Below, one piece after another: positions 14,254 through 28,787 of a stretch of DNA of 64,000 nt. The notes beneath the pieces are model-generated. The model searched no databases. It saw only the letters and a list, made by a program, of their open reading frames with translations, and was not told where the DNA came from. The DNA is from Dictyoglomus sp. NZ13-RE01 (GTDB lineage Bacteria > Dictyoglomota > Dictyoglomia > Dictyoglomales > Dictyoglomaceae). Position numbers and translations under genes: made by a program. Every line of letters begins with the position of its first letter. The first letter of the stretch is position 1. Where the stretch lies: NCBI GenBank assembly GCA_002878375.1, contig NIRF01000001.1, positions 299,931-363,930 of the forward strand, written 5' to 3'.

Positions 14254-14329
14254 GGGCGGATAGCTCAGAGGTGAGAGCGCCTGCCTTACAAGCAGGAGGT
14301 CGTAGGTTCAAATCCTGCTCCGCCCACCA
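14254..14329 (+). tRNA. tRNA-Val(TAC), integration target
   Basis: Complete cloverleaf with acceptor GGGCGGA/TCCGCCC, anticodon loop CTTACAA (anticodon TAC) and encoded CCA. Bases 14276-14329 recur exactly at 28717-28770. The gene is therefore the attachment site of the downstream island, and its 3' part now comes from the element's own att copy. Confidence 0.96.
14276..14329 (+). repeat. attL: 54-bp direct repeat inside tRNA-Val
   Basis: Identical over 54 bp to 28717-28770. It begins AGCGCCTGCC at the edge of the anticodon arm and ends with the CCA. The flanks differ on both sides (G versus A before, T versus A after), which defines the repeat. It preserves a working tRNA after insertion, as is usual for tyrosine-recombinase elements. 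Confidence 0.93.
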
Positions 14330-14426
14330 TCTCTTTTAAATGTATATTTCATCTATATTTCCTCTTTTTTAATCATATTATTAACTCTTTATCTCTTTCA
14401 CTATTTTTGAAGGAGGCAGGCGTACT

Positions 14427-15323: not shown

Positions 15324-15324
15324 T

Positions 15325-15354
15325 TTGACTAATCCCTTTCTTTTGGGATATATT
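15325..15354 (+). promoter_or_regulatory. Promoter of the hsdMSR operon with dyad
   Basis: -35 TTGACT (15325-15330), 18-bp spacer, -10 TATATT (15349-15354). Within the spacer an inverted repeat ATCCC-N8-GGGAT could be an operator. It lies just after the integrase stop, 33 bp before the hsdM start. Confidence 0.6.
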
Positions 15355-15386
15355 ATTGATAAGTAGTTCATCATGGAGGCGTAATT

Positions 15387-16910
15387 ATGTGGTTTGGGAA
15401 GCTTGACATAACAACACTTGAAAATTGGTTGTGGGAAGCAGCTTGTAGTATTAGAGGTCCTATTGATGCTCCAAAGTATAAAGATTATATTATCCCTCTT
15501 ATTTTTTATAAACGTTTATGTGATGTTTATGAGGATGAGATTAGAAAGTTAAGTAAAGAGTTTGGAAATGTGGAAACTGTTAAAGATTTAGTTAGTCATG
15601 ATCGTGGACTTGTTAAATTTTACATCCCTGAAGATTGTTTATGGGAGAATGTAAGAAAGATTACTGTAAATCTTGGTGAAAAATTGACTGAGGCACTAAG
15701 GAAGATAGCAAAAGAAAACCCAAAGCTTCAAGGTGTAATTGATATAGTTGATTTTAATGCAACTCAAGCAGGTCAAAGAATTATTGATGATGACAGACTT
15801 CAAAATCTCATGCAAATATTAAGTAAATATAGGTTAGGCTTGGAGGATGTAGAGCCAGACATTTTAGGTAGAGTTTATGAATATCTTTTGAGAAAGTTTG
15901 CAGAAGGTTCAGGACAAAGTGCAGGAGAGTTTTACACTCCAAGAGAAGTTGGTCTTTTGATGGCTTACTTAATTGATCCTAAAGAAGGCGAAGAGGTTTA
16001 TGACCCTGCTTGTGGTTCTGGTGGGCTTTTGATAAAAGCGCAACTTGTTCTTAAAGAAAAAAATAATGAAATTAAAAGACCTTTAAAACTATATGGACAG
16101 GAGATAAACCCATTAACCTATGCTATGGCGAAGATGAATGCTTTTGTCCACGATATGGAGGCAACTATTGAAATAGGAGACACAATTAGAAACCCTAAGT
16201 TTATAGAAGGTGGAAAGGTAAAGAGGTTCGATAAAGTTATTGCAAATCCAATGTGGAATCAAAAATTCCCCCAAGACATCTTTGAAAATGATCCCTATAA
16301 TAGATTTTCCTTTGGAATTCCTCCCTCAAATCAGAGTGCGGATTGGGGATGGATACAGCATATGTATGCATCTCTGAAAGATAATGGGAAGTTAGTTGTT
16401 GTTATAGATACTGGCGTTGTAACAAGAGGCTCAGGAAGTTCAGGAACAGATAGAGAAAAGGAAATAAGAAAGAAATTTGTTGAGCAAGACCTTATTGAGG
16501 CGGTAATCCTCTTAGTTGATAACTTATTCTATAACACTACTGCACCAGGAAATATAATTGTAATTAATAAGGCAAAGAAGCATAAGGGAGAGATTTTACT
16601 TATTAATGCATCAAAGGAATATGCAAAAGGAAGACCAAAGAATTATCTTACAGAAGAGAATATAAATAAAATTGTGGATGCATATTTCGGATGGAAGGAG
16701 ATAGAAGGCTTTTCAAAGATTATAACTATAGAGGAGGCACGAAAGAACGATTATAATTTAAGCCCTTCCCGCTATATATCAATTGATGAGGAGGAAGAAA
16801 TTCCACCTGTTGAGGATATCCTTATTGAGCTTGCAGAAATTGAAGAGGAACGAGAGAAAATTGATAAAGAACTTAAGGAGATTTTAGGAAGGATTGGGTT
16901 TGAGGTATGA
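15387..16910 (+). CDS. hsdM: Type I restriction-modification methyltransferase subunit HsdM
   Basis: N6-adenine methyltransferase of a type I RM complex. An N-terminal HsdM domain (~1-150) is followed by GEFYTPREVGLLMAYLI and AdoMet motif I (VYDPACGSGGLL). Motif IV reads NPMWN instead of the commoner NPPF/Y, a variant known for HsdM proteins. A C-terminal helical tail contacts HsdS. 507 residues, full length. GGAGGC precedes the ATG. The stop overlaps hsdS by 4 bp. Confidence 0.95.
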   Translation: MWFGKLDITTLENWLWEAACSIRGPIDAPKYKDYIIPLIFYKRLCDVYEDEIRKLSKEFGNVETVKDLVSHDRGLVKFYIPEDCLWENVRKITVNLGEKLTEALRKIAKENPKLQGVIDIVDFNATQAGQRIIDDDRLQNLMQILSKYRLGLEDVEPDILGRVYEYLLRKFAEGSGQSAGEFYTPREVGLLMAYLIDPKEGEEVYDPACGSGGLLIKAQLVLKEKNNEIKRPLKLYGQEINPLTYAMAKMNAFVHDMEATIEIGDTIRNPKFIEGGKVKRFDKVIANPMWNQKFPQDIFENDPYNRFSFGIPPSNQSADWGWIQHMYASLKDNGKLVVVIDTGVVTRGSGSSGTDREKEIRKKFVEQDLIEAVILLVDNLFYNTTAPGNIIVINKAKKHKGEILLINASKEYAKGRPKNYLTEENINKIVDAYFGWKEIEGFSKIITIEEARKNDYNLSPSRYISIDEEEEIPPVEDILIELAEIEEEREKIDKELKEILGRIGFEV

Positions 16911-18175
16911 AGGTAAAAGAAAACGGATTTAAAGAGACAGAAATCGGATTAATCCCAGAGGATTGGGAAGTTGTGAGGCTTAAAGATGTAGCAGTTTATA
17001 TGAAAGCAGGTGGTACTCCAAGAAGAACGGTAAAAGATTATTGGAATGGGGATATACCATTTGTGAAAATAGAGGATATAACATCGTCCAACAAATATAT
17101 TTTAACTACTAAGGAATACATCACAAAAAAAGGTTTGGAAAATTCAAGTGCTTGGTTAGTCCCAGAAAATTCTATCTTGTTAAGTATGTATGCAAGTATA
17201 GGTGAAGTTGCTTTAACAAAATTTCCTGTAGCCACTAATCAGGCAATTTTAGCTATAATACCAAACACTGATAAGGTATCTATCGATTTCTTATACTATT
17301 CACTAAAATTCCATGAGGAAAAACTAAGCTCTTATACAGTTCAAACCACGCAAAAAAATGTTAATAAAGCCATAACTGAAAATCTTTTAATCCCCCTCCC
17401 CCCTCTTGATGAACAAAAAAAGATTGCGAAAGTGCTTGATAAAATACAGCAGGCAATAGAGATTCAGGATAAAATCATTGAAAACACCAAAAACCTAAAA
17501 AAATCACTCATGCAAAAACTTTTTACAGAAGGGCTTTATGGCGAGGAACAAAAAGAGACAGAAATTGGATTAATTCCTAAGAGTTGGGAAGTGGTGAGAT
17601 TGGGGGAAGTGGCGGTATTAAATCTAGGAAGAACTCCAGATAGGAGCATTAAAAAATATTGGGAAAATGGTTCAATTCCTTGGGTAAAAATCCAAGATTT
17701 AAACAATAATATAATTTATGATACATCAGAAAAAATTTCAGATATTGCATTTAAAGAAAAATTTGGGAATAAATTCGTCCCTCAAGGTACTATATTATTA
17801 AGTTTTAAATTGACCATAGGAAGGGTTGGGATTTTGGGAATAGATGCAGTTCATCATGAAGGAATTGTCTCCTTATTTTTGAATGAGGACAAAGTAAATA
17901 AAGAATTTTTGTTTTTTCTACTTCAAAATATGGATTATAATGACTACATTGACAATTATGTTAAAGGTAAAACATTAAACAAAGAAAAGTTAAAAATTCT
18001 CCCTATCCCCCTCCCCCCTCTTGAAGAGCAAAAAGAGATTGCCCACATATTAAGCACAGTGGATAAAAAAATAGAGATTGAGCAAAAAAGAAAGGAAGTT
18101 TTAAAGAGGCTATTTAAAACAATGCTACATAAACTTATGACTGGAGAAATAAGGCTTAAGGAGATAGACCTATGA
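16907..18175 (+). CDS. hsdS: Type I restriction-modification specificity subunit HsdS
   Basis: Provides DNA target recognition. There are two target-recognition domains, each opened by ETEIGLIP..WEVVRL (residues ~7 and ~218) and closed by PLPPL(D/E)EQK..IA plus a long helix that acts as spacer. The two halves share repeated DNA, including a 20-bp stretch of C tracts at 17390-17409 and 18005-18024. Both halves look complete, so a bipartite recognition site is expected. The sequence does not tell the recognised bases. ATGA overlaps link it to hsdM and hsdR. Confidence 0.94.
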   Translation: MKVKENGFKETEIGLIPEDWEVVRLKDVAVYMKAGGTPRRTVKDYWNGDIPFVKIEDITSSNKYILTTKEYITKKGLENSSAWLVPENSILLSMYASIGEVALTKFPVATNQAILAIIPNTDKVSIDFLYYSLKFHEEKLSSYTVQTTQKNVNKAITENLLIPLPPLDEQKKIAKVLDKIQQAIEIQDKIIENTKNLKKSLMQKLFTEGLYGEEQKETEIGLIPKSWEVVRLGEVAVLNLGRTPDRSIKKYWENGSIPWVKIQDLNNNIIYDTSEKISDIAFKEKFGNKFVPQGTILLSFKLTIGRVGILGIDAVHHEGIVSLFLNEDKVNKEFLFFLLQNMDYNDYIDNYVKGKTLNKEKLKILPIPLPPLEEQKEIAHILSTVDKKIEIEQKRKEVLKRLFKTMLHKLMTGEIRLKEIDL

Positions 18176-21060
18176 CTCTTATATCCGAAAGTAAAGACGT
18201 CCAAGATGTAATAATAGACTATCTACAAGGGATAGGATGGAAATATATCCCGCCTTATGACCTGATGGTATTAAGAAACTTTGAAAGTAGCGAGCCATTA
18301 ATTACTGATATTCTAAAAAATAAGCTCATAGAACTAAATCCAGGAGTAATAACAGAAAAAAACTTCGATAATATTATTACACGATTAAAACTCACACGTG
18401 CCACATTGGAAGGGAATAAAGAAATCCTTGAATACTTAAGAGGAAATAAAACGGTTTATGTAGAAAGTGAGAAAAGGGAAAGAAATGTTAAATTTATTGA
18501 TTTTGAGAACATAGAAAATAATGACTTTTCATTCACTAAAGAATTTACCTTTAAGGACAAAGAAAACAGAAGACTTGACATTGTCCTATTCATTAATGGA
18601 ATACCCATCATAGACCTTGAGCTAAAAAAACCTACTGTTTATGAAGCAGAGGAAGAAGCCTTTGAGCAAATTAGTGTCTACAACCATGTACTTCCCGAAC
18701 TTTTTAAATATTTACAAATTTATGCCATATCTGATGGCATAAACCTATATTATGGACCCACATGGAAGTACGAAAGCAAAACATTTTATAAATGGAAAGT
18801 AGAAAATGGACTAAACCTCGAGAAAGCAATCAAAACCTTTTTTGATAAAGAAGAGATAATAAAAGTTATACAATCCTTTATTGTATTCATGACAATAGAC
18901 GAAGAATTACAAAAATACATCCTTAAACAGCATCAAAGAAGAACCATAAGAAAGGTAATTAAGAGAGTTTTGGAGGAGAAAGATAAGAAGAAAGGACTAA
19001 TATGGCATACACAAGGCTCCTATAAAACCCTCACAATGATAGTCTTAGCAAACGAACTAAGAAAATTATCAGAACTTGAAAACCCCACCATTCTCGTTGT
19101 GGTTGATAGACTTGAACTTGAAGCCCAAATTTACCAAAATTTTCAAGCCTTTGGCTTTCAAAACCTAATTAGAGCGGAAAGTAAAGAACACCTTCAAGAC
19201 CTTCTTAAATCTGACTATAGGGGACTTATTATTACTACAATACACAAATTTGAAGGAATGCCCAAAAATATCAATAGTAGGGAAAACATAATCGTATTAA
19301 TTGATGAGGCTCACAGAAGCCAAGAAGGAGACTTAGGAAATTACATGAGAGGAAGCCTGCCCAATGCCTTCTACTTTGGATTTACAGGAACCCCTGTAGA
19401 CAATACAAAGGTAGGTAAGGGAACATTTATAGCCTTTGGATATCCACCCGACGAGCCTTATCTTGATAAATATACCATTGATGAATCCATACAAGACGGC
19501 ACAACAGTACCCTTATACTACACCCTAACACAATCAGAGCTACACGTTGATAAAGAAACCCTTGAAAAAGAATTCTTTAAAATCGTTGAAGAAGAAGGAA
19601 TTACAAGCCTTGAAGGTATAAATAAGATAATTGAAAGGGCAGAAAAATTAAAATCAATATTAAAATCATACGACAGAATAGACAAAATTGCCAAACACAT
19701 TGCAGAACATTACCAAAAATATGTTGAGCCGTTAGGTCTTAAAGCCTTCATTGTTGCAGTTGATAGAGAAGCCTGCGCCCTCTATAAAGAAGCAATAGAC
19801 AAATATTTAGACCCTGAATATACAAAAGTTGTTTATACAAGTTACTATAAAGACTCAGACCTTCTAAAAAAATACTACCTTAGCGATGAAGAAGAAAAAA
19901 GACTAAGAAAAGAATTTAAATCCCCCGATAAGCTTCCAAAAATCTTAATAGTAACTGAAAAACTTCTTACTGGATATGATGCCCCAATCCTCTATATAAT
20001 GTATCTGGATAAACCACTAAAAGACCATACACTTCTTCAGGCAATTGCAAGAGTAAATAGACCCTACGAAAACAAAAAAAGTGGCTTAATAATAGACTAC
20101 ATAGGCATATTTGACAACTTACAGAGAGCCCTCTCCTTCTATAGCAAGGATATAGACGCAGGACTTATAGACTTTGAGAAATTAAAAGAAAAATTTAAGC
20201 TTCTAATGGATGAGGTGGACAAAATCCTAAACGACTTAAATTTGGAAGAAAAAGAAGAAAAAGACAGAATCTCCAAAATTTTAGACTACTTTTTTGAAGA
20301 AGAAAAAAGACAAAACTATTTTAACCTCTTCAAACAGATAGAAGAAATTTACGACATCCTATCACCCGACCCCTTCCTATATGAGTATATAAGAAAATAC
20401 AAGCTATTAGTTCAAATATACATGATACTATATCAATACTACAACCCAGAGGCAGAAAAAAGGAAAGTAAGAAGAAGCGTATTAAAGAAAACAGAAAAAC
20501 TAATACAAAAAAATGTTGAATTAGAAAAATTAATTGACTCACTGCCATTATACGAAATAAATAAAGATATTGCCACAACCATTAAAAACGACAATATTCC
20601 AGATAGGGTTAAGATAGCCAACTTATACAGAAGTTTAATAAAACACATAGAGGAAAACAAAAAAAGATTCCCCTATCTTATCTCCCTCTCTGAAAAGATT
20701 GAAGAAATAATTAAAGAGCTAAAGGAAAGACAAAAAAGCGTTGAATTAGCTCTTGAAGAACTATCAAAAATAGCTGAAGAAATAGCAAACGCAGAATCCG
20801 AATTAAAACACTATAACCTAAGCAAAGAAGAATTTAGCTACTTCTGGATACTTAGAAAGTATAAAAAAGATAAACCACAGGAACAGGCAAAGAAAATAGC
20901 AAGCCTAATAAACTCATATAGCTATTGGATGTATAACAAAGATGATGAGAAAAATTTAAGAATTAAACTATATAAATTACTTGGGGCATCAACCGAAAAT
21001 GTAGAGCTTGTCAACCTTATCTTAGGAATGGACAAATTAATTAAGGAGCAAAAAGAATGA
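18172..21060 (+). CDS. hsdR: Type I restriction endonuclease subunit HsdR
   Basis: Translocating endonuclease subunit. The nuclease domain is N-terminal (LDIVLFINGIPIIDLELKKP, PD-(D/E)xK type). The SF2 motor follows: motif I around residue 281 reads TQGSYKTLTM, where TQGSGK(S/T) is expected, so Gly is replaced by Tyr284. Motif II is LIDEAHRS, motif III GFTGTP, and motif VI QAIARVNRP. A coiled-coil-rich C-terminal domain reaches 962 residues. Everything but motif I looks functional. It overlaps hsdS and the metalloprotease gene by 4 bp each. Confidence 0.93.
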   Translation: MTLISESKDVQDVIIDYLQGIGWKYIPPYDLMVLRNFESSEPLITDILKNKLIELNPGVITEKNFDNIITRLKLTRATLEGNKEILEYLRGNKTVYVESEKRERNVKFIDFENIENNDFSFTKEFTFKDKENRRLDIVLFINGIPIIDLELKKPTVYEAEEEAFEQISVYNHVLPELFKYLQIYAISDGINLYYGPTWKYESKTFYKWKVENGLNLEKAIKTFFDKEEIIKVIQSFIVFMTIDEELQKYILKQHQRRTIRKVIKRVLEEKDKKKGLIWHTQGSYKTLTMIVLANELRKLSELENPTILVVVDRLELEAQIYQNFQAFGFQNLIRAESKEHLQDLLKSDYRGLIITTIHKFEGMPKNINSRENIIVLIDEAHRSQEGDLGNYMRGSLPNAFYFGFTGTPVDNTKVGKGTFIAFGYPPDEPYLDKYTIDESIQDGTTVPLYYTLTQSELHVDKETLEKEFFKIVEEEGITSLEGINKIIERAEKLKSILKSYDRIDKIAKHIAEHYQKYVEPLGLKAFIVAVDREACALYKEAIDKYLDPEYTKVVYTSYYKDSDLLKKYYLSDEEEKRLRKEFKSPDKLPKILIVTEKLLTGYDAPILYIMYLDKPLKDHTLLQAIARVNRPYENKKSGLIIDYIGIFDNLQRALSFYSKDIDAGLIDFEKLKEKFKLLMDEVDKILNDLNLEEKEEKDRISKILDYFFEEEKRQNYFNLFKQIEEIYDILSPDPFLYEYIRKYKLLVQIYMILYQYYNPEAEKRKVRRSVLKKTEKLIQKNVELEKLIDSLPLYEINKDIATTIKNDNIPDRVKIANLYRSLIKHIEENKKRFPYLISLSEKIEEIIKELKERQKSVELALEELSKIAEEIANAESELKHYNLSKEEFSYFWILRKYKKDKPQEQAKKIASLINSYSYWMYNKDDEKNLRIKLYKLLGASTENVELVNLILGMDKLIKEQKE

Positions 21061-21377
21061 AACAAAAAGAAATTGATAAAGAAATTACAAAGGAGAAAAT
21101 ATTAGAACTTTGCAACAAATGGCAGAATATACTAAAGGTCAAAGTAAATAGAATACAAATAAGAAAAATGAAAAATAAATGGGGCTCCTGCTCCTCTAAG
21201 GGCAACCTTACACTCAATAAAGAATTAACAAAACTATCCCTTGATTGCGTTGAATATGTAATAGTCCATGAGCTCCTGCACCTCATTGTCCCTAACCACG
21301 GAAGAATCTTTAAAACCTTACTTTACACATACCTACCTGACTGGGAAAAAATACATAACAAACTAAAAAATTATTAA
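21057..21377 (+). CDS. YgjP-like (DUF45) metallopeptidase, RM-associated
   Basis: 106 residues with KWGSCSSKGNLTLN, then the zinc motif HELLHLIVPNHG (HExxH plus downstream His), matching the YgjP/WLM-type family. The ATG overlaps the hsdR stop (ATGA), so it is translated as the fourth gene of the RM operon. Homologues follow hsdR in many type I operons; their role there is not established. Turnover of HsdR would be a guess. Confidence 0.82.
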   Translation: MKQKEIDKEITKEKILELCNKWQNILKVKVNRIQIRKMKNKWGSCSSKGNLTLNKELTKLSLDCVEYVIVHELLHLIVPNHGRIFKTLLYTYLPDWEKIHNKLKNY

Positions 21378-21388
21378 TTTTCCCCTTA

Positions 21389-21645
21389 GGGTGGTGGGTG
21401 GGAATAGATGTTTTTGGAGCATGTGCGAGCGGATAGTGGCGAGCAGTTATGCGAGCATGAGCGAGCGCAAGCGAGCTGATGCGAGCAAGTGGCGAGCAGT
21501 TAAGGGCGAGCACGTGCGACAAAAAACAATTTGCCGAAGGCAAATATTTGAAATTGCGAAGCAAAGCGGAGCAATTTGAAATATGGGCGGGTGGGTGGTG
21601 GTTTTTAAAATGTTGTTTGGATTGCGAAGCGTAAGCGAAGCAATG
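21389..21645. repeat. Repeat-rich noncoding region: phased GCGAGC array, G-rich flanks, palindromes
   Basis: Eight GCGAGC hexamers start at 21425, 21439, 21451, 21461, 21471, 21481, 21492 and 21506, five of them 10-11 bp apart. Next is the hairpin TTTGCC-GAA-GGCAAA (near 21530-21544). Two related palindromic units of 23-24 bp (about 21553-21575 and 21621-21644) both start ATTGCGAAGC and end AGCAAT. G-rich strings GGTGGTGGGTGGG (21390-21402) and GGGCGGGTGGGTGGTGG (21585-21601) flank the array. It lies between two converging gene sets. No gene is seen here. Confidence 0.75.
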
Positions 21646-21654
21646 CAAACTCCT

Positions 21655-21843
21655 TTAACTTTTTTCTCTGTTTGCAATCTCCTTAATGAGTTCTTGGAGT
21701 TCAATTATTGTTTTAGTAAGCTCTGAGAGTGCCTCTGTTGATTTCTCAATAGTTTTATCTACTCTTATTAATAGATATAGGGCAACCACAACAGGAAAGC
21801 CAACATTACTTATAAGCTGGATCATAGGTTGCAATTCATCCAA
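21655..21843 (-). CDS. YvrJ-family small membrane protein (holin-like)
   Basis: 62 residues. An N-terminal transmembrane helix (ISNVGFPVVVALYLLIRVD) is followed by an amphipathic, coiled-coil-like tail (STEALSELTKTIIELQELIKEI). This matches the YvrJ family of Firmicutes and is similar in layout to BhlA/UviB holin-like peptides. It lies 3 bp after the lysozyme gene, which would suit a lysis or export role. That role is inferred only from position. Last gene of the minus-strand module. Confidence 0.7.
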   Translation of the reverse strand: MDELQPMIQLISNVGFPVVVALYLLIRVDKTIEKSTEALSELTKTIIELQELIKEIANREKS

Positions 21844-21846
21844 ATT

Positions 21847-22272
21847 TTACTTCCTCCTTATGTATAAATATAAATCAAGTGTCCTGTTAATCCAACCAAT
21901 TAGAAACTTCTCCAATCTTTTATTTTTCTCTGCTATCTCTTTATATTTTTTAATCCTCAAAATAATAAATTCCTTCGGATCATCCCCTGATTTTTTTAAA
22001 ATCTCTTTTGCCGTCTCAATCCCCATATTAACGGAAGTATCAAATAGTAATATATCAAAGGGATAAGGTAATTTTTCACAACCTGCCTTATCCCAATAAT
22101 TCCTCCTATAAATTTCCTTTGCCTTCTCTAATGTTAAGTTTTTAATATCAAGTGTGGGATAACTTCTCTGGCTAATACCGTATTTAGTAATTCCTCCTGG
22201 ATCATCCTTGTCGTCTGAATAAGTCCCTTCCCATTTCAATGTAAAACTAATTGCCTTCTCAAAGTTATCCAT
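21847..22272 (-). CDS. GH108-type lysozyme (endolysin-like)
   Basis: Begins MDNFEKAISFTLKWEGTYSDDKDDPGGITKYGIS, the signature of glycoside hydrolase family 108 muramidases; the Glu of WEG is the expected catalytic acid. A C-terminal peptidoglycan-binding-like half follows (TSVNMGIETAKEILKKSG). I chose ATG 22272 because GGAGGTAAAG lies directly upstream; a longer frame would overlap the preceding gene. No signal peptide, as for holin-dependent endolysins. 141 residues. Flanked by a 78-residue unknown gene and YvrJ. Confidence 0.85.
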   Translation of the reverse strand: MDNFEKAISFTLKWEGTYSDDKDDPGGITKYGISQRSYPTLDIKNLTLEKAKEIYRRNYWDKAGCEKLPYPFDILLFDTSVNMGIETAKEILKKSGDDPKEFIILRIKKYKEIAEKNKRLEKFLIGWINRTLDLYLYIRRK

Positions 22273-22274
22273 CT

Positions 22275-22511
22275 TTACCTCCAGAGCCTTATAATAATAT
22301 TTCCAATCTTCTCCCCTTTTGATAAATCCCAAATTGAGAATCCAAAAGGAAATAAAGAAAAAACAAGCCTAATTTTTTGAGGCTCATTTATTGCCTCCTG
22401 CAATTTCTCAATATCTCCTTTATATCCAAGAGAAAATAAAAATCCTCCATCCTTATTTAAAAAAACAAGTTCATCATTGGAATAAATTATTTTGAAATCT
22501 CCAATTTTCAT
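22275..22511 (-). CDS. Hypothetical protein, 78 residues
   Basis: I do not recognise this protein. It has a beta-rich N-terminus (FKIIYSNDELVFLNKDGGFLF) and a hydrophobic middle (IRLVFSLFPFGFSIW). Its stop codon lies inside the ribosome site of the lysozyme gene, so the two are probably translationally coupled. No clear ribosome site precedes its own ATG; an A-rich run and a GC-rich hairpin lie there instead. Confidence 0.55.
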   Translation of the reverse strand: MKIGDFKIIYSNDELVFLNKDGGFLFSLGYKGDIEKLQEAINEPQKIRLVFSLFPFGFSIWDLSKGEKIGNIIIRLWR

Positions 22512-22525
22512 TTTATTTTTTTTTG

Positions 22526-22573
22526 TTTGGGGCTTGGCTCGGCGACGCTATCGCACCGCCTCGCACAAGCCCC
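22526..22573 (-). repeat. GC-rich hairpin with GCGAC/GCGAG motifs
   Basis: GGGGCTTG and CAAGCCCC form an 8-bp stem around a loop of about 27 bases rich in GGCGACG, GCGATAG and GCGAGG (minus-strand reading). On the minus strand it is followed by an A run, so it is not a terminator in that direction. The motif TGTGCGAG is shared with the array at 21423. It is much richer in GC than its surroundings. Confidence 0.5.
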
Positions 22574-22593
22574 TACTAATTCACCTCCTTAAA

Positions 22594-22818
22594 TTAAGGA
22601 TTGTAATAATCTGTAGATGAAGTCTCTACAATTCTGGCGTCAAGTTTACTTATTAGGTCTCCACCTCTTCCTTGAAAAATATTCTTTTGAATTATGGTAT
22701 CCATTGCGCTTAATATTTCGTCCTGTGTTAAATCATCTCTTGGGTCAGGTATTGTTATAATAAATCTATTCCCTCCAGCATCTGCAAAAGTCATTCTCAA
22801 AACCTTTCTTACAGCCAA
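22594..22818 (-). CDS. DUF2922 protein
   Basis: 74 residues starting with TTG (MAVRKVLRMTFADAGGNRFIIT), then IPDPRDDLTQDEILSAMDTIIQKNIF, which matches the DUF2922 family. A strong GGAGGTG ribosome site supports the TTG start. DUF2922 and DUF1659 genes usually sit together with yvrJ in Firmicutes; no function is known. Here the three are split by a hypothetical protein and the lysozyme. Confidence 0.8.
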   Translation of the reverse strand: MAVRKVLRMTFADAGGNRFIITIPDPRDDLTQDEILSAMDTIIQKNIFQGRGGDLISKLDARIVETSSTDYYNP

Positions 22819-22848
22819 TTAATTCACCTCCTTTCAAATCAAACTAAA

Positions 22849-23073
22849 TTACAAACTTATTAATTCCTCGTCATTTTCTCTTAAGACTTTTACCAATGGG
22901 TGCTTTTGTAATCCTGCGAGTAATACTCCTACATCATAAACGTCTTGGTCTGTTGCGTCTGGTTTTACATTGTTGATTGTTCTATACCTTGTAATATTAT
23001 TTCCTTGTGCGTCCTGTCCAACTACAAGAAGCAACCTTATTTGGTTCATTAACGGAATTGATTGCACAGCCAT
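22849..23073 (-). CDS. DUF1659 protein
   Basis: 74 residues. The region GQDAQGNNITRYRTINNVKPDATDQDVYDVGVLLAGLQ fits DUF1659. AAGGAGGTGATTAA precedes the ATG. First gene of the YvrJ module, directly behind the promoter with the 14-bp inverted repeat. Function unknown. Confidence 0.8.
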   Translation of the reverse strand: MAVQSIPLMNQIRLLLVVGQDAQGNNITRYRTINNVKPDATDQDVYDVGVLLAGLQKHPLVKVLRENDEELISL

Positions 23074-23090
23074 TTAATCACCTCCTTTCA

Positions 23091-23139
23091 ATACTATATA
23101 TTGTATTCTCTAATAATATTATAACACAATATATAGTAT
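23091..23139 (-). promoter_or_regulatory. Promoter with paired 14-bp inverted repeat
   Basis: ATACTATATATTGT (23091-23104) is exactly repeated in inverse at 23126-23139, with 21 bp between. On the minus strand an extended -10 (TGT-TATAAT; TATAAT is the complement of 23118-23123) lies between the two arms. The arms would cover the -35 region and the start of the transcript. This is a good candidate for a regulated promoter of the DUF1659-DUF2922 module. No consensus -35 is present. Confidence 0.65.
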
Positions 23140-23187
23140 CATATGGGTAAAAAAAAGGAGCAAGGATTTTCTCCCTGCTCCCTAATT

Positions 23188-23243
23188 GTCACTCGTCACT
23201 TGTCACTCGTTACGTGTCACGCGTCACTCGTTACATATCACTC
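23188..23243. repeat. Heptanucleotide repeat array 1
   Basis: Eight consecutive 7-bp units with consensus GTCACTC (GAGTGAC on the minus strand), some with one or two changes (GTTACGT, GTCACGC, GTTACAT, ATCACTC). The array begins at the stop codon of the secreted repeat protein gene (23242-23244) and runs downstream of it. Confidence 0.8.
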
Positions 23244-24711
23244 ACTTAGTAGGATATGGTCCTGTATTCCCATCTGCATCAAGCTTTAAGATGTATACAT
23301 CACTTTTTCCTGCTCCAAAGGATTCTGTATTCCCAGCAACAATGTACCCCCCATCACTTGTCTGTTGAATGGCAAATGCTCCATCACTAGAATCTCCCCC
23401 AAAATTCTTTTGCCAAACTAATTCTCCATTTGCATCAAGCTTTAAAATATATACATCACTCCCTCTTGCTCCAAAGGATGTTGTATATCCAGCAACAATA
23501 TATCCTCCATCACTTGTCTGTTGAATGGAACGTGCTTCATCACCACCCCATCCGCCAAAAGTCTTTTGCCAAACTAATTCTCCATTTGCATCCAGCTTTA
23601 GGATGTATACATCTCTTCCTCCTGCTCCAAATGACTTTGTATATCCAGCAACAATATATCCCCCATCGCTTGTCTGTTGAATGGAACTTACTACATCATA
23701 ATATTTTCCACCAAAAATTTTTTCCCAAACTAATTCTCCATTTTCATCAATTTTTAAGATATATACATCTTCATCTGAATCTCCAAATGATTCTGTATAT
23801 CCAGCAACAATGTATCCACTATCACTCGTCTGTTGAATGGAGTATGCTTCATCCCAACCACTTCCACCAAAAGTCTTTTGCCATACTAAATTACCGTTTG
23901 CATCAAGCTTTAATATGTATACATCCCTTCCTCCTGCCCCAAAGGAACTTGTATATCCAGCAACAATATATCCTCCATCGCTTGTCTGTTGAATGGAATT
24001 TGCTTCATCATCACTACTTCCACCAAAAGTTTTTTTCCAAACTAAATTTCCATCGGCATCAAGCTTTAAGATGTATACATCTCCTCCTGCTCCAAAGGAG
24101 TATGTATATCCAGCAACAATATATCCTCCATCACTTGTCTGTTGAATAGAATTTGCTTCATCATCACTACTTCCACCAAAAGTCTTTTGCCACAATAAAT
24201 TTCCATTCTCATCAAGCTTTAAGATGTATACATCACTCCATCCTGCTCCAAAGGAGTATGTATATCCAGCAACAATATATCCTCCATCACTTGTCTGTTG
24301 AATAGAATTAGCTCCATCTTCATCGGTTCCACCAAAAGTTTTTTGCCAAACATTAATCGGTGCAGTATTATTTACAATTATGTTTATCCTTACAGCAGAT
24401 TTGTTCCCTGATTCATCATACGCAATTACTGCAAGATTATAAACCTTATTAGGATAATATAAAGTATTCCATTCAAATTCATAAGGTGATTCATCATCTT
24501 CTCCTACTTTTCTATTATCAATATAAAACTCAACTTTTGCTACTCCTACGTTATCACTTGCATTCACTTGGATAGTGATAACTCCTGAAACAGTTTGCCC
24601 ATTTTTTAGGTTAACAATAGAGACTTTTGGAGGCATTGTATCTACTTCAGAAAAGCTAATTGTGAGAAGAAATAAAAATAAAATTAAGAGGCTTACAAAA
24701 ACTTTTTTCAT
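23242..24711 (-). CDS. Secreted protein with Ig-like domain and seven ~50-residue repeats
   Basis: A signal peptide (MKKVFVSLLILFLFLLTISFS) is followed by a bacterial Ig-like domain (~25-115). Then come seven repeats of about 50 residues built on W.KTFGG...D.A.SIQQTSDGGYIVAGYT.SFGAG..DVYILKLD.NG. Seven units suggest a closed seven-bladed beta-propeller. The repeats are also similar at DNA level (about 150 bp period), which implies recent duplication. Similar repeat proteins occur in thermophilic bacteria and archaea. The cell-surface role is unknown. GGAGGTAA precedes the ATG. Confidence 0.8.
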   Translation of the reverse strand: MKKVFVSLLILFLFLLTISFSEVDTMPPKVSIVNLKNGQTVSGVITIQVNASDNVGVAKVEFYIDNRKVGEDDESPYEFEWNTLYYPNKVYNLAVIAYDESGNKSAVRINIIVNNTAPINVWQKTFGGTDEDGANSIQQTSDGGYIVAGYTYSFGAGWSDVYILKLDENGNLLWQKTFGGSSDDEANSIQQTSDGGYIVAGYTYSFGAGGDVYILKLDADGNLVWKKTFGGSSDDEANSIQQTSDGGYIVAGYTSSFGAGGRDVYILKLDANGNLVWQKTFGGSGWDEAYSIQQTSDSGYIVAGYTESFGDSDEDVYILKIDENGELVWEKIFGGKYYDVVSSIQQTSDGGYIVAGYTKSFGAGGRDVYILKLDANGELVWQKTFGGWGGDEARSIQQTSDGGYIVAGYTTSFGARGSDVYILKLDANGELVWQKNFGGDSSDGAFAIQQTSDGGYIVAGNTESFGAGKSDVYILKLDADGNTGPYPTK

Positions 24712-24756
24712 ATTGTTACCTCCAGAGTTTTAATTTATATCGAGTTCCTTATTTTT

Positions 24757-24765
24757 ATTATATCA
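24757..24765 (-). promoter_or_regulatory. Extended -10 promoter of the secreted repeat protein
   Basis: On the minus strand TGATATAAT matches an extended -10 (TGnTATAAT); TATAAT is the complement of 24757-24762. The -35 (TTTTCA) is weak. It lies ~50 bp upstream of the ATG. Confidence 0.5.
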
Positions 24766-24802
24766 TAAATTTTTGAAATTGAAAAGCTTGTTTTTACCTC
24801 TC

Positions 24803-24830
24803 CTCACTCGTCACCCATCACCCGTCACTC
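24803..24830. repeat. Heptanucleotide repeat array 2
   Basis: Four 7-bp units (CTCACTC, GTCACCC, ATCACCC, GTCACTC), the same family as the array at 23188. The stop codon of the 66-residue gene (24825-24827) lies inside the last unit, so this array too starts at the stop of a minus-strand gene. Confidence 0.7.
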
Positions 24831-25025
24831 ATCCTCATACGCATCCAAGAAAATTAGTCCCAAAATAGATTTTTCTTTTTTAATTTTTTCAAAGAGATTT
24901 TCAATAACTACATCCTCAGAAATTCCGAGTAGTTCAAATTTTATTAATACCTCATTCATCACCTTTCGGAATTCCTCATATTCATTTTCAAGCTCTAAAA
25001 TTTTAATTAGCTCCTTAGAGTTCAT
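24825..25025 (-). CDS. Hypothetical protein, 66 residues
   Basis: Acidic, helical small protein (NSKELIKILELENEYEEF...). Not recognised. It overlaps the resolvase gene by 4 bp (ATGA) and has a good ribosome site (GAGGGGAAA), so it is translated with the replication genes. Its 3' end runs into the heptamer array. Confidence 0.6.
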   Translation of the reverse strand: MNSKELIKILELENEYEEFRKVMNEVLIKFELLGISEDVVIENLFEKIKKEKSILGLIFLDAYEDE

Positions 25026-25312
25026 TTTCCCCTCATTAGATTAATAAATTTATCTAAGCTCATTACAACAAGATAATCTTTTCTATCAGCCTTGATAAAT
25101 AAAAAGTCCTTATCTTCAAGCCATTTATAAATTTCTCTAAATCCGTTTGCTCTCGCCTTTACTTCGCATATAAAATTATCAATTAAAATATCTCCCTTGA
25201 GCCAGCTACCACCAGAAAGGGGGATCCTTTTTGCATTTATCCCCCTTTCGTTCAATTTTTTCACAAGCTCGTATTCAATCCTATATCCTTTCCTCTTGCT
25301 CTTTTTCCCCAT
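25022..25312 (-). CDS. Holliday-junction resolvase-like nuclease
   Basis: 96 residues, PD-(D/E)xK fold of the Hjc type: KGYRIEYELVKKLNERGINAKRIPLSGGS, then GDILIDNFICEVKAR (catalytic Asp, Glu-x-Lys) and FLFIKADRKDYLVVM. I chose ATG 25312, one base after the DnaC-like stop (TAAGATG); a longer frame runs into the upstream gene. It probably resolves recombination or replication intermediates of the element. Confidence 0.8.
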   Translation of the reverse strand: MGKKSKRKGYRIEYELVKKLNERGINAKRIPLSGGSWLKGDILIDNFICEVKARANGFREIYKWLEDKDFLFIKADRKDYLVVMSLDKFINLMRGK

Positions 25313-25313
25313 C

Positions 25314-26117
25314 TTACCAGTCCTGTTGTTTTTTCCTTTTGTCCCTGCCAAGCATAAGGACGGGCTTACACAAGCCGACCATCCTTGAATAAATTCTCTC
25401 GCCAAATTTTTCTTTTATCTCTCGCAAGCTTAAATTAGATGTGATTATTGTTGAAAGATTATTTCTGTAGCGGTAATCAAGTAATTGGACAATTTGCTCT
25501 TGCACCCACTCGGTATATCTTTCCGCTCCGATGTCGTCTACCAAAAGCACGGGGATTTTTGCAATCTCAGTTATTGGATTAAATTCAATATCTCCTTGAT
25601 TGAAATAATCCCTTATCTTCTGTATAAATTCAGGGACAAAAACAGCAAATGAAAATAGATCCGTCTTTTGGTTAATCTCGTTTAGAATGGCATATGAGAG
25701 ATGGGTTTTCCCTGTTCCTGGTGGTCCATACAAAAATATTCCCTTCCCACTCCTATATAATTCATTTTTTAAATACATGTTAGCAAGATTAATAACTTCC
25801 GCGTGGCTTTTCTCAATCTTGAAACTTGCAAAGCTTTTTTCAGGCGGAATTTCAATTATGAAGTCTTTTAGTTTTTCCTTCGTCTTCCTGTAAAAGTACA
25901 TTTTGCACGGCTCATAAGTGATATATACCTTGTCATCTGCTAAAACAAGATTCGGCACTAAGCCAAGGCAACCGTTACATCTTTTCTCCTTGCAACGAGA
26001 AAGAATTTCCTCCCCTTCCTCAAAATATTTTACATACTCAACTAAGACCTCATCCTCCACCTTTACGCTTCTTTTGATACGCTCGTAAAAATTCGGGTAT
26101 AACTGCGGTAGGGACAT
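25314..26117 (-). CDS. DnaC/IstB-like helicase loader
   Basis: AAA+ ATPase with an N-terminal cysteine cluster (CKEKRCNGCLG...C), Walker A GIFLYGPPGTGKTHL, Walker B VLLVDDIGAE and sensor TSNLS, ending in an arginine-finger region. It loads replicative helicase on phage origins. ATG 26117 has AAGGAA upstream and gives 268 residues, still overlapping the replisome organizer by 68 bp. The longest frame (from 26207) would overlap more and is less likely. Confidence 0.85.
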   Translation of the reverse strand: MSLPQLYPNFYERIKRSVKVEDEVLVEYVKYFEEGEEILSRCKEKRCNGCLGLVPNLVLADDKVYITYEPCKMYFYRKTKEKLKDFIIEIPPEKSFASFKIEKSHAEVINLANMYLKNELYRSGKGIFLYGPPGTGKTHLSYAILNEINQKTDLFSFAVFVPEFIQKIRDYFNQGDIEFNPITEIAKIPVLLVDDIGAERYTEWVQEQIVQLLDYRYRNNLSTIITSNLSLREIKEKFGERIYSRMVGLCKPVLMLGRDKRKKQQDW

Positions 26118-26760
26118 CTTCTGTTCCTTCAAGCCACTTAGCATAGTATTCGTAGTCATACTCTTCATCATCGGGATCCTCTTCAGGATTTCCATTAGCT
26201 GTTCCATCTTTCCCTCCTAATTGATTAGTTAAATTTTTTTCAGAGTTATTATTTATATATAAATATTCTTTATCTGTATCTGTATATGTATCTGTATCTG
26301 AATCTGTATCTGTATCTGGGGGCGTTACTGTAACGTTACTGTAACGTTTCATGTCCGTTACATTTTCCGTTTCTGTAACGTTACTGTAACGTTTCATCCC
26401 CGTTACACTTTTCTTTTTCTCCCTATACCTTTTTACTCTTTCTGAAGAGCTATCGCTTACATACTGCCTCTTATTCCAATTGGTAACAACCAAAACATTA
26501 TCCTCCTCGTGCAACATGTATTGTTCTTTAAAAACCTCTATAGCCTTTTTCACTTCCTCAACGGGAACCTGTGCCTCATCCGATATATCCTCAACCGTTA
26601 TGGGTAAATGCTCAGAAAGTAGAAGCTTTCCCTCAATGGGGCTCTCCTTTGCCATACAAAGAATTGCTATCCAAATCCATCTATAACTAATTGGAAGTCT
26701 TCTTATCTTTCTATCCCTTGTTATTTCTGTATAAAGCCTAAGCCAAGTATTATTTGCCAT
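26050..26760 (-). CDS. Phage replisome organizer (DnaD-like N-terminal domain)
   Basis: The first ~115 residues form the winged-helix domain of phage replisome organizers (NTWLRLYTEITRDRKIRRLPISYRWIWIAIL). A low-complexity linker follows, with two copies of MKRYSNVT and a Thr-Asp run (TDTDSDTDTYTDTD), then an acidic tail. Such proteins bind iterons in their own gene and recruit the DnaC-type loader encoded next door. The linker DNA shows such iterons (26322-26407). GGAGGTGGTGA precedes the ATG. Confidence 0.85.
   Translation of the reverse strand: MANNTWLRLYTEITRDRKIRRLPISYRWIWIAILCMAKESPIEGKLLLSEHLPITVEDISDEAQVPVEEVKKAIEVFKEQYMLHEEDNVLVVTNWNKRQYVSDSSSERVKRYREKKKSVTGMKRYSNVTETENVTDMKRYSNVTVTPPDTDTDSDTDTYTDTDKEYLYINNNSEKNLTNQLGGKDGTANGNPEEDPDDEEYDYEYYAKWLEGTEDVPTAVIPEFLRAYQKKRKGGG
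26225..26407. other. Putative replication origin of the element
   Basis: Three adjoining blocks lie inside the organizer gene. First, an AT-rich stretch (about 26225-26270). Second, seven TGTATC-type hexamers (26275-26316, five exact). Third, a cluster of nine GTTAC/GTAAC motifs (26324-26406), including two exact 25-bp copies (26328-26352 and 26373-26397) 45 bp apart, with the palindrome GTAACGTTAC in each. Iterons beside an AT-rich zone within the initiator gene is the layout of lambda-type origins. The repeats also encode repeated residues, so coding drift is an alternative. Confidence 0.5.
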
Positions 26761-27079
26761 TCACCACCTCCAAGAAAAAGGATAAAATCTCCTTTGCCCT
26801 CTGGAATGAAATCTTATCAATCTCATCAATGCCCAGATTAAATTTCTCTCTTAATAGCTCCTTATTGTTCCCTCTCTCAAGAAGCCTCTTCAAAAGTTTT
26901 AATTGCTTCTCTGTGATTTTCTTTTCCTCCTTCACTTCCTTATACTCAATAGTTAAAACCTTTTTGCTCTCATCAAAGGTCCTTGGAAGAATATTCTCCT
27001 CTGTATAGGAAAAATAAACGACCTCACTTTTTAAAATCTCCTCAAAAATATTTTTTAATTTATCCTTGATGTCCTTCAT
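26750..27079 (-). CDS. Hypothetical protein of the replication operon
   Basis: 109 residues, highly charged, with a helical C-terminal half (KKITEKQLKLLKRLLERGNNKELL...). Not recognised. It overlaps the XRE gene by 4 bp and the organizer by 11 bp, so it is clearly part of the operon. Confidence 0.65.
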   Translation of the reverse strand: MKDIKDKLKNIFEEILKSEVVYFSYTEENILPRTFDESKKVLTIEYKEVKEEKKITEKQLKLLKRLLERGNNKELLREKFNLGIDEIDKISFQRAKEILSFFLEVVNGK

Positions 27080-27285
27080 TTTTCTTCCTCCTTTATCAAA
27101 TCTTCTAAGGGAACGCCTAAAATCTTTGAAAGCTTAATAAGATGTTCAATTTTTATTCCCCTCTTTCCATTCTCAATCCTCCAGTATGATTGATAATGCT
27201 TATAGCCCAATTCCTCCGCCATATCTTTTGCGCTTATTCCCTTCTCCTCTCTTATCCTTTTTATTTTTCTTAAATCAACCTTCAT
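27076..27285 (-). CDS. XRE-family DNA-binding protein (Cro-like)
   Basis: 69-residue helix-turn-helix protein: IKRIREEKGISAKDMAEELGYKHYQSYWRIENGKRG. The start is ATG 27285 behind GGGGGTG. It is the second gene of the rightward-repressed (minus-strand) operon, the place of a Cro- or CII-type regulator in temperate elements. Confidence 0.82.
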   Translation of the reverse strand: MKVDLRKIKRIREEKGISAKDMAEELGYKHYQSYWRIENGKRGIKIEHLIKLSKILGVPLEDLIKEEEK

Positions 27286-27319
27286 CAAGCACCCCCATAT
27301 TAAAAAATTGGGGACGGCA

Positions 27320-27565
27320 CTAAAGCCGTCCCTCTATCTCCTCTGGATCAATCTCACCTTCTGGAATATAAAGGTCCTCTCCGTATAAAACTTTATCCTC
27401 TAAATAATCAATGAGTAAACTTGCCTCCCTCTTTGTTAAATCTTTACTTGACCTTTTCATAAAGTGAGCATAAATATAATCCCTGTATTTCTCATCGGAC
27501 CATCCAAGCTTTTTAACTAAAGAGTGGATATAAAACTTTTGTTTATTAGTAATCATTTCGCCCAT
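27320..27565 (-). CDS. GemA/Gp16-like protein (DUF1018)
   Basis: 81 residues. MITNKQKFYIHSLVKKLGWSDEKYRDYIYAHF followed by SSKDLTKREASLLIDYL matches the DUF1018/GemA family of phage early proteins (Mu gp16-like). The start is ATG 27565, 8 bp after GAGGAGG; a longer frame from a TTG overlaps an operator. First gene of the minus-strand early operon. Confidence 0.7.
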   Translation of the reverse strand: MGEMITNKQKFYIHSLVKKLGWSDEKYRDYIYAHFMKRSSKDLTKREASLLIDYLEDKVLYGEDLYIPEGEIDPEEIEGRL

Positions 27566-27570
27566 ACTCA

Positions 27571-27676
27571 TAACCTCCTCGGTCAATTTTGATTCTATTC
27601 TATAACCTTATCGGTTAGCTGTCAATATTTAAAAAAGGGTATTTATTTTTAGCAGGTTATGTTTTAAAATATAACC
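27571..27676. promoter_or_regulatory. Divergent control region with repeated operators
   Basis: The minus-strand promoter has -35 TTGACA (27625-27620), a 17-bp spacer and -10 TAGAAT (27602-27597). Operator TAACC-N5-GGTTA (27603-27617) exactly fills the spacer. A second copy, TAACC-N5-GGTCA (27571-27585), lies 32 bp away over the GemA ribosome site. A third set of half-sites, GGTTAT-N10-ATAACC (27655-27676), lies ahead of the plus-strand repressor gene, whose likely -10 is TATACT (27685-27690). The layout is that of a lambda-like switch. Confidence 0.72.
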
Positions 27677-27705
27677 AAAGAGGATATACTAAGGAGATGA
27701 TAGAG

Positions 27706-28017
27706 ATGAGTATTGGAGAAAGGCTTAGAAGTGCGAGGAAGCAAAAAGGATTGACCATAGCAGAACTTGCAAAATTATTGGGAGTTGCTCCAATTACAGT
27801 AAGTAGATATGAGACAAACAAAAGAGAGCCCGACATTGAAACCCTAAAAAAGCTCAGCGACATATTAGATGTTTCTGTGGACTATCTACTTGGGAAAGAG
27901 GATGTAAAAATTGCAACATCCCTCTCCTATGGAGACCTTTCAGACCTTCCAGAAGAAGCAAGAAGGTCAATTGAAGAATTCATTGAGTTTGTCAGAAAGA
28001 AATATGGGAAAAAATAA
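27706..28017 (+). CDS. CI/ImmR-like XRE repressor
   Basis: 103 residues: helix-turn-helix IGERLRSARKQKGLTIAELAKLLGVAPITVSRYETNKREPD, then a DVSVDYLLGK linker and a short C-terminal part without a self-cleaving peptidase. Induction would therefore depend on the ImmA-type protease encoded next, as in ICEBs1. The start is ATG 27706, 9 bp after GGAG. It presumably binds the TAACC-N5-GGTTA operators. Confidence 0.88.
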   Translation: MSIGERLRSARKQKGLTIAELAKLLGVAPITVSRYETNKREPDIETLKKLSDILDVSVDYLLGKEDVKIATSLSYGDLSDLPEEARRSIEEFIEFVRKKYGKK

Positions 28018-28031
28018 TCTTGAGGTGATGA

Positions 28032-28481
28032 ATGCTTTCTAATCTTCTTAAAATCATTGAAGAAGAAGGTATTCATATTGAGTGGTGGGACTTCAAAGAA
28101 CCAATCTCCGCTGTCTATGTAGAAATAAATAACTCAAAAATCATAGGACTTAGAAAAGAAATAGTAAGAAGCAACAAAAAACTCAAATGCACCCTTGCGG
28201 AAGAGCTGGGACACTACTTCACAGGCTCCACCTACAGCAAAAGAAAACCAAAAAACTACAGAGAAAAAATAGAAATATCAAAAGAAGAATACAAAGCAAA
28301 AAAATGGCAAGCCTTTTATCTCATTCCAGAGGAAGAATTCATAAAAGCAATTAAAAAAGGAATAAGGGAAGTTTGGGAGCTTGCAGAATACTTTGACGTA
28401 GACGAAGAACTAATAAAATTCTACTTAGACATTCCAAAGGTAAAAGAAAACCTAATTGGAGTATGCAAGTTTGAAGACTAA
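28032..28481 (+). CDS. ImmA/IrrE-type metalloprotease
   Basis: 149 residues. The zinc motif CTLAEELGHYFTG (Glu57, Glu58, His61) has the EExxH form common in phage ImmA proteins instead of HExxH. In ICEBs1 such a protease cleaves the ImmR repressor to trigger excision, and its position after the repressor gene fits. GAGGTG lies 6 bp before the ATG. Confidence 0.85.
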   Translation: MLSNLLKIIEEEGIHIEWWDFKEPISAVYVEINNSKIIGLRKEIVRSNKKLKCTLAEELGHYFTGSTYSKRKPKNYREKIEISKEEYKAKKWQAFYLIPEEEFIKAIKKGIREVWELAEYFDVDEELIKFYLDIPKVKENLIGVCKFED

Positions 28482-28490
28482 GGAGAAAAA

Positions 28491-28667
28491 ATGAGAAGAG
28501 GAAGAAAACTAACAAAAGAAGAAGTAATAAAAATTCTTGGAGAAGAGATTGGAAGGAATGCAAAAATATTCATAGAACTTGAAAACGAAACAGAAAACTT
28601 AGACGAAGAAACAATAAATAAGTTAAAAGAAATAATCAAGAAGAGTCTTGCGAACTCTAAATATTGA
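28491..28667 (+). CDS. Small basic protein, 58 residues
   Basis: MRRGRKLTKEEVIKILGEEI followed by a charged helical tail. Its ribosome site (AAGGAGA) overlaps the end of the ImmA gene 9 bp upstream, so it belongs to the repressor operon. The N-terminus resembles a short DNA-binding or AT-hook-like stretch, and the position next to attR would suit an excisionase, but that is only positional. Not recognised as a family. Confidence 0.6.
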   Translation: MRRGRKLTKEEVIKILGEEIGRNAKIFIELENETENLDEETINKLKEIIKKSLANSKY

Positions 28668-28692
28668 CACGGAGGTGAGAGTATGATAAAAT
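28664..28692 (+). promoter_or_regulatory. Outward promoter at the right end of the element
   Basis: -35 TTGACA (28664-28669, exact consensus), 17-bp spacer, -10 TAAAAT (28687-28692, one change). It fires rightward across attR. In the excised circle it leads into the integrase gene about 150 bp downstream. When integrated it leads into tRNA-Asp and tRNA-Thr. It is the best-matching promoter inside the element. Confidence 0.65.
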
Positions 28693-28787
28693 CTGGACAG
28701 TTAAAAATTGGGGCGAAGCGCCTGCCTTACAAGCAGGAGGTCGTAGGTTCAAATCCTGCTCCGCCCACCAAATTAAATATGGTATAA
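28683..28787 (+). CDS. Short ORF running through attR
   Basis: Preceded by a strong ribosome site (GGAGGTGA, 6 bp spacing). Integrated, it encodes 34 residues, most of them from the tRNA repeat, and ends in host DNA. In the circle the same frame continues through the att core into the left end and ends at 14430, where its TGA overlaps the integrase ATG (62 residues). It may be a translational coupling device rather than a functional protein. Confidence 0.4.
   Translation: MIKSGQLKIGAKRLPYKQEVVGSNPAPPTKLNMV
28717..28770 (+). repeat. attR: 54-bp copy of the tRNA-Val 3' part
   Basis: Exact copy of 14276-14329, from the anticodon arm to CCA. It lacks the tRNA 5' half, so it is not a tRNA gene. 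The six bases GGGGCG a few bases upstream happen to match the acceptor start, which gives it a look of a tRNA without D-arm. Confidence 0.93.

Follow-up and report, generated by a model that had tools for sequence, protein, structure and literature searches.

We have analyzed a 64-kb stretch of DNA (the window) in which an element of about 14.4 kb (14276-28770) is integrated at a tRNA-Val gene. The element is bounded by two exact copies of a 54-bp sequence, and a genome of the same genus (L766) has the uninterrupted att site. The features that define the element and its replication genes are the following.

14276-14329, plus strand: left att repeat, 54-bp exact copy, 3' end of tRNA-Val (exact repeat)
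14427-15323, plus strand: tyrosine integrase of the element, beside the left att repeat (PF00589, E 1e-40)
25314-26207, minus strand: DnaC-like helicase loader, the gene next to the organizer (phrog_50, E 3e-51; IstB_IS21, E 3e-14)
26050-26760, minus strand: replisome organizer gene, 236 codons encoding 236 amino acids (PF09681; phrog_10469, phrog_4880 and phrog_186; AlphaFold2)
28717-28770, plus strand: right att repeat, 54-bp exact copy (exact repeat)

Along with the replication module the element holds a repressor and an ImmA/IrrE-like peptidase, and its cargo includes type I restriction-modification genes, a YgjP-like peptidase, a GH108 endolysin, and DUF2922 and DUF1659 proteins. It also encodes a secreted-looking protein (23242-24711) in which DUF5122 beta-propeller units recur and a bacterial Ig domain is present; the strong DNA repeats found there are coding repeats. 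Four Pfam models for terminase (PF04466, PF03237), HK97-type capsid (PF05065) and portal (PF04860) proteins gave no match in the whole genome, and the element appears to be satellite- or island-like. Because structural genes were not detected in the element, the putative origin described below may no longer fire; the argument made here at the level of the family does not rest on its firing.

The product of the organizer gene matches PF09681 (Phage_rep_org_N) over residues 6-118 with an E-value of 1.2e-14 and 54.8 bits, against a gathering score of 23.3, and also matches phage organizer/DnaD-like loader profiles (the three phrog families listed above). The match to the O-like profile phrog_345 (E 2e-4) is far weaker than these. 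The annotated start of the DnaC-like loader gene overlaps the end of the organizer gene, and a RusA-like resolvase gene comes after the loader gene. An earlier reading made from the sequence only had named this gene a replisome organizer; the PF09681 match and the loader alongside bear this out, and by these matches we class it as a PF09681 replisome organizer with neighbouring phage replication genes. A first close-relative scan of viral contigs, made with the window protein, found no relative, and in a search of 60 genomes of relatives the protein was absent from the 59 others (two of the same genus and four more of the same family). Thus a site-by-site comparison with a close homologue was not possible.

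The features within the organizer gene that concern us here are the following.

26225-26275, no strand assigned: AT-rich stretch of 51 bp, candidate DNA unwinding element (11.8% GC)
26275-26316, plus strand: TGTATC-type hexamers, in-frame GAT-ACA (Asp-Thr) on the coding strand (codon choice locally ordinary)
26323-26406, minus strand: array of eight boxes, G[T/A]AACG as read on the coding strand and CGTT[A/T]C as read on the plus strand (hexamer scan and synonymous recoding)
26328-26352, plus strand: 25-bp exact repeat, copy 1, belonging to the box array
26373-26397, plus strand: 25-bp exact repeat, copy 2, belonging to the box array
26386-26448, minus strand: codons of the predicted basic helix, residues 105-125 (SSERVKRYREKKK...) (AlphaFold2 secondary structure)
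26434-26436, minus strand: codon of Val109, the predictor of base 3 of the boxes (GTNACG) (alignment column 132)

The eight boxes start at 26323, 26334, 26345, 26356, 26368, 26379, 26390 and 26401, with spacings of 11, 11, 11, 12, 11, 11 and 11 bp, and they account for 8 of the 14 CGTT[A/T]C hexamers on the plus strand of the window. A spacing of 11 bp, which 3 does not divide, puts the boxes into every codon frame, and they are read as VT, KR or NV. The same protein was recoded synonymously 40,000 times, 20,000 times by shuffling the gene's own codons and 20,000 times with pooled local codons, and none of these recodings reached eight boxes, five GTAACG boxes, or a chain of eight boxes at 10-12 bp. 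The direct short repeats inside the initiator gene therefore exceed the coding expectation. The sequence-only reading had reported a GTTAC/GTAAC cluster with two exact 25-bp copies here. Cluster and copies are present, although the 11-bp phase of the eight boxes had been overlooked, so that the earlier observation is real and stronger than first stated.

Beyond the array lie the AT-rich stretch and the TGTATC-type hexamers. The GC content of the AT-rich stretch ranks among the lowest 0.08% of 51-bp windows, so that the stretch reported earlier is present; the 100 bp from 26225 are ordinary in composition (9th percentile). All seven TGTATC-type hexamers are there as well: five exact copies (26275, 26287, 26293, 26305 and 26311) and two variants (TGTATA at 26281, TGAATC at 26299). 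However, the Asp and Thr codons that compose them are the locally commonest ones (118/168 and 74/147, respectively), so that the hexamers require no explanation at the DNA level; they do not stand as a separate signal, and we dropped them as candidate binding sites. They are possibly part of the unwinding region. Across 121 genes of the family, the AT content of the 60 nt following the array is 0.713, compared with 0.652 in synonymous shuffles and 0.615 over the whole gene. The coding strand is also poor in T there (0.167 vs 0.239 gene-wide), yet synonymous shuffles give 0.169, so this poverty comes from the amino acids and was rejected as a signal; only the AT excess goes beyond them. The region adjoining the repeats is thus a candidate for unwinding on the basis of its composition alone.

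To follow the boxes into other genomes, a protein search of phage records was made with a query that included the linker. It returned at least 114 records, all below 60% identity, of which ten were fetched. All ten distinct homologues, from phages of Staphylococcus, Streptococcus, Enterococcus and Acinetobacter, have between 2 and 5 G[AT]AACG boxes, which cluster between nt 326 and nt 457, immediately behind the part of the gene that encodes the N-terminal domain. As this query had held the linker, the search was repeated with an alignment of the N-domain (A3), the last columns of which include the helix. The resulting discovery set comprised 65 genome loci and at least 80 viral loci, reduced to 76 nonredundant genes at 80% identity and 75 without N. 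The pattern used in the discovery scan held part of the helix ([VQ][AQ][RK][YH]RE), so that genes with V or Q were favoured in this set. Among the loci listed, three or more GTAACG/CGTTAC boxes fall within 130 bp in 37 of these 75 genes; 35 of the 75 beat their synonymous shuffles at p<0.01, with boxes in mixed codon frames. A de novo count of 6-mers placed CGTTAC at the top (186 observed, 43.7 expected), and CGTGAC (72 vs 15.6) and CGTCAC (54 vs 14.8) were also in excess; genes without GTAACG often have GTGACG or GTCACG at the same place. Spacings between forward GT[A/C/G]ACG boxes peak at 10, 11 and 12 bp (30, 40 and 15 pairs), the commonest pattern being 12, 11, 10. The outcome that the sequence-only reading had named as refuting it, repeats lost or diverged in DNA while the residues are kept, is thus reversed: the homologues keep the boxes, beyond synonymous expectation, while the linker peptide changes.

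The third base of the boxes differs between genes and follows one residue of the protein. When base 3 of phased forward GTNACG boxes was scored, which was possible in 49 of the 75 discovery genes, V, Q or A went with A in 29/29 genes, N with G in 10/10, K with C in 9/9 and M with T in 1/1. The residue is that of alignment column 132 (Val109 in the window), which fully separates the box classes in 64 genes of the A and C/G classes. In the window, 30 nt separate the start of its codon from the first box, with no overlap, and the distance is at least 30 nt across the joint set. The rule was then fixed and applied to three further sets, gathered with N-domain queries and with search patterns that lay in the N-domain and excluded the helix. 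After removal of 31 of these 236 genes for being at least 80% identical to discovery genes, the rest reduced to 107 nonredundant genes, 74 of them scorable. The rule was correct in 71 of the 72 to which it applies (V with A, 46/46; K with C, 13/13; N with G, 3/3; Q with A, 9/10); the remaining two have Thr, which lies outside the rule, with C in L330 and G in L519. All these sets are samples, in which the viral loci are the matches listed (at most 80 or 120 per scan). Genes without two phased GTNACG boxes could not be scored (59 of 182 nonredundant genes: 26/75 and 33/107); some of these have other repeats and in some none is visible. Exceptions over all loci are Gln with GTGACG in L337 and L690 and a mixed array in a further Gln locus (L029). 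Apart from L519, Thr accompanies G in L662, L686, L728 and L734, but C in L330.

For the joint set of 125 genes, to which the window gene belongs, class entropy is 1.243 bits, of which column 132 accounts for 1.185. Columns 135, 133 and 128 come next; columns 128, 132 and 135 stand in the relation i, i+4, i+7. Within genes, 386 of 400 boxes share the majority base of their gene. The winged-helix N-domain was considered as the reader of base 3 and rejected: its best column holds 0.291 of the 1.243 bits, and near-identical N-domains occur with different boxes.

A tree of the 125 genes built from the N-domain without the helix requires at least 29 changes of base class and at least 28 of residue class. 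There are 12 supported independent pairs; residue and base go together in 11 or 12 of them and in opposite directions in none (sign test, p ~0.0005). For C versus G alone there are 5 pairs, of which 4 or 5 agree and none opposes, too few for significance. Two pairs of genes (L493/L499 and L169/L221) have N-domains that are 99-100% identical, helices that differ, and boxes that differ to match. Since such pairs differ in both, helix and sites appear to move together as a cassette between near-identical organizers.

Several single loci extend this picture. A second group of ten phage records (TP901-1 and Tuc2009, chosen by name, and eight others) contained three with GTNACG-type boxes, all with the expected residue and base as judged by eye (Listeria C2, V/A; Ruminococcus PS6, K/C; Oenococcus S11, M/T); such boxes were not seen in six of the ten, and Tuc2009 has other 11-bp repeats. 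L189 has GTACGA boxes at the usual place, and L193 and L213 have CTAACG (CGTTAG), too few cases to extend the code. In three organizers of Streptococcus and Leuconostoc phages (L286, L287 and L285), TGTAC-type repeats followed by AGAGATAGAG-rich DNA occupy the same position in the gene and may be another box class. Three genes (L188, L227 and L278) carry an insert between the basic helix and the boxes that resembles an HNH endonuclease, so named from its motif (CxYCG...DHIIP...CxxCN). The boxes of L227 and L278 are thereby shifted to nt 612-655 and 676-697, and the code still holds (V/A and K/C).

Loci were also collected from the DNA pattern, with a scan for the reversed hexamer as control, and were scored with a helix profile that left out the predictive column. 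Among the loci listed, a basic helix of the initiator type lies in frame upstream of 37/120 GTAACG and 87/120 GTSACG arrays, versus 3/119 and 2/119 in the controls. The plain spacing histogram was discarded as evidence. The first array scan favoured spacings of 9-12 bp, but the control also peaks at 9, 11 and 12 (9:48, 10:9, 11:87, 12:127, 13:10, 14:27), and it is the helix context upstream that separates the two. Of the 27 nonredundant GTAACG loci listed, 25 have V or Q with A, the exceptions being L029 (Q, mixed) and L022 (T, with a weak score), and in 17 of the 27 the family N-domain model has no match. The 18 nonredundant GTSACG loci listed comprise six K-C, one N-G, four T-G and one Q-G, and six that are weak, mixed or dependent on register. 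L653 (H) likewise scores weakly and L739 (S) has a mixed array. For four GTCACG loci (L644, L650, L677 and L679) the profile calls A, A, D and E at the predictive position; shifted by two residues they read R-K-x-x-Q-R-E, as in the Lys class, a register set by eye and excluded from the support. The ORFs spanning the first GTAACG loci listed belong to several different PHROG families of initiators, with matches to phrog_10469 (20/51), phrog_186 (16/51), phrog_4880 (15/51) and others, and only 16/51 match PF09681.

The structure of the window protein was predicted with AlphaFold2 using 89 homologues. The N-domain is predicted with confidence to be winged-helix-like, its pLDDT exceeding 90 across most of the stretch 11-90. 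Val109 is in a separate predicted helix (105-125; pLDDT 91 in residues 111-120), beyond which the linker from about residue 130 to 200, partly encoded by the array and the AT-rich stretch, is of low confidence. By this model the linker is under little constraint of fold and would be a natural place for DNA sites. Foldseek gave zero matches to the predicted fold at E 0.001 or better, and the best sequence match among solved structures (E 0.0099) was to a winged-helix stretch. In VIA-align comparisons the N-domain resembles RepA_N plasmid initiators (4pql, 4pt7 and 5kbj; Z 8.3, 8.0 and 7.9), but CRP/FNR winged helices score equally well (Z 8-9), so the resemblance is not specific; moreover, the RepA_N-like domain excludes the helix that tracks the boxes. 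A free-standing basic helix in the major groove is found in bZIP proteins, which are dimerised by a coiled coil. The i, i+4, i+7 series of predictive columns and the lone predicted helix recall their basic regions, as a likeness only.

Intragenic phage origins are already established. In lambda, the initiator gene O contains ori-lambda, which combines repeats for the initiator with AT-rich DNA, and the loader gene follows; the lambda iterons are longer than the window boxes and of another sequence. The sequence-only reading had called the present arrangement lambda-type. This describes the layout well (intragenic repeats, AT-rich DNA, loader next door), but the closer relatives are organizers of Gram-positive phages. 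The oriL of SPP1, in gene 38, is reported to have direct repeats and an AT-rich unwinding element, to be bound by G38P and to be active in vitro (PMC6316719), and a deletion of ORF20 in phage 80alpha is reported as not complementable in trans (PMC5499656, which cites lambda ori as a parallel). SPP1 oriL, as published, shares the layout, including the separate helicase loader, and SPP1 has a second origin. In 80alpha (NC_009526) a putative origin, with short repeats and then AT-rich microrepeats, is similarly annotated in the part of the initiator gene that encodes the linker, beside a DnaC-like loader gene; ORF20 differs in what reads as another N-domain and in repeats that are not GTNACG. The rep gene of Lactococcus phage Tuc2009 (NC_002703) is likewise noted in its record as 'contains origin of replication'. 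It has four CAACCA repeats at exact 11-bp spacing, followed by A/G-rich repeats; the repeat sequence is another one, and these may be the mapped sites. In PLE satellites and the ICP1 Odn, a DNA-binding domain of the initiator covaries with the origin repeats and modules are swapped (PMC8263062). That system involves a noncoding origin and a swap of a whole domain, whereas the window family has one helix, encoded next to its sites, in which a single residue is predictive. Searches of the open-access literature turned up neither GTNACG boxes in PF09681 genes, nor the rule linking residue and base, nor cassette swapping, nor any binding or replication experiments on a PF09681 organizer.

Taken together, the array very probably represents the initiator boxes, comparable to iterons, of an intragenic origin that would be read by the organizer's own basic helix. 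The sequence-only reading had suggested a possible origin inside the organizer gene, and the suggestion gains support in that boxes persist in homologues and covary with an encoded residue. The mechanism would build on the observed array, its phase and its conservation in DNA, and on the covariation of residue and base with repeated linked switching. The organizer would bind the GTAACG boxes, one per helical turn, by means of the basic helix encoded immediately upstream, with Val109 facing base 3 of each box. Several organizer molecules on one face of the DNA would then open the AT-rich stretch alongside, and the host replicative helicase would be brought in by the DnaC-like loader, the product of the next gene. 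We infer in this way the contact of helix and box, the order of binding, the unwinding, the loading of the helicase and the start of replication at the array.

Three other explanations have been weighed. If the repeat were one of protein only, the linker peptide (NVTVT, KRYSNVT, (DT)n) would have been selected or have slipped, with the DNA repeat as a by-product. The hexamer part, which consists of in-frame codons in ordinary choice, agrees with this, as does a predicted disordered linker, where low-complexity peptides are common; the boxes do not, since the window has them in all three codon frames and the homologues in mixed ones, synonymous shuffles do not reproduce them, and they track a residue encoded at least 30 nt upstream. 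We consider this explanation very improbable. The same low standing is given to the idea that a host factor or another phage factor reads the sites and that the covariation reflects shared ancestry or hitch-hiking of adjacent sequence. The helix codons and the boxes are a median of 46.5 nt apart and recombine as a unit, so any close marker would be co-transferred. However, nearly all of the class entropy falls on column 132, and that of its neighbours declines helically (135, 133, 128) and not with distance from the boxes; different helices with Val or Gln both pair with A; and the same code is found at loci collected from the DNA pattern whose ORFs are without the family N-domain.

A more substantial alternative, still unlikely in our view, is that the organizer binds the boxes for autoregulation or silencing and that replication starts elsewhere. 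Initiators often repress themselves, and the present data, being of sequence, point to a self-recognised array and go no further. On the other hand, a position in the middle of the gene would be unusual for a repressor site. Boxes and AT-rich DNA in the initiator gene with the loader gene next are the layout described for SPP1 oriL (PMC6316719), and two further cases argue in the same direction: the rep gene of Tuc2009, with its annotated origin, and the 80alpha gene, for which complementation in trans failed (PMC5499656). We therefore retain the reading of the array as part of an origin.

We lean, by a small margin of belief, towards a broader proposal, that the basic helix and its boxes form a portable, self-contained recognition cassette (V/Q:A, N:G, K:C, M:T), exchanged between near-identical organizers, spread onto unrelated initiator N-domains, and defining classes of incompatibility or immunity. 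If this were true, such classes could be read from sequence alone. For most temperate phages and satellites the origin has yet to be mapped. A rule readable from sequence would locate the origin within the organizer gene and name the base read by the initiator, so that origins could be assigned in many phages (Staphylococcus, Streptococcus, Enterococcus, Clostridium and Bacillus groups) and cross-reacting replicons predicted. The family would thus offer a compact natural system of protein-DNA recognition with repeated switches of specificity, in which the specificity of an origin is testable by one substitution and one base change.
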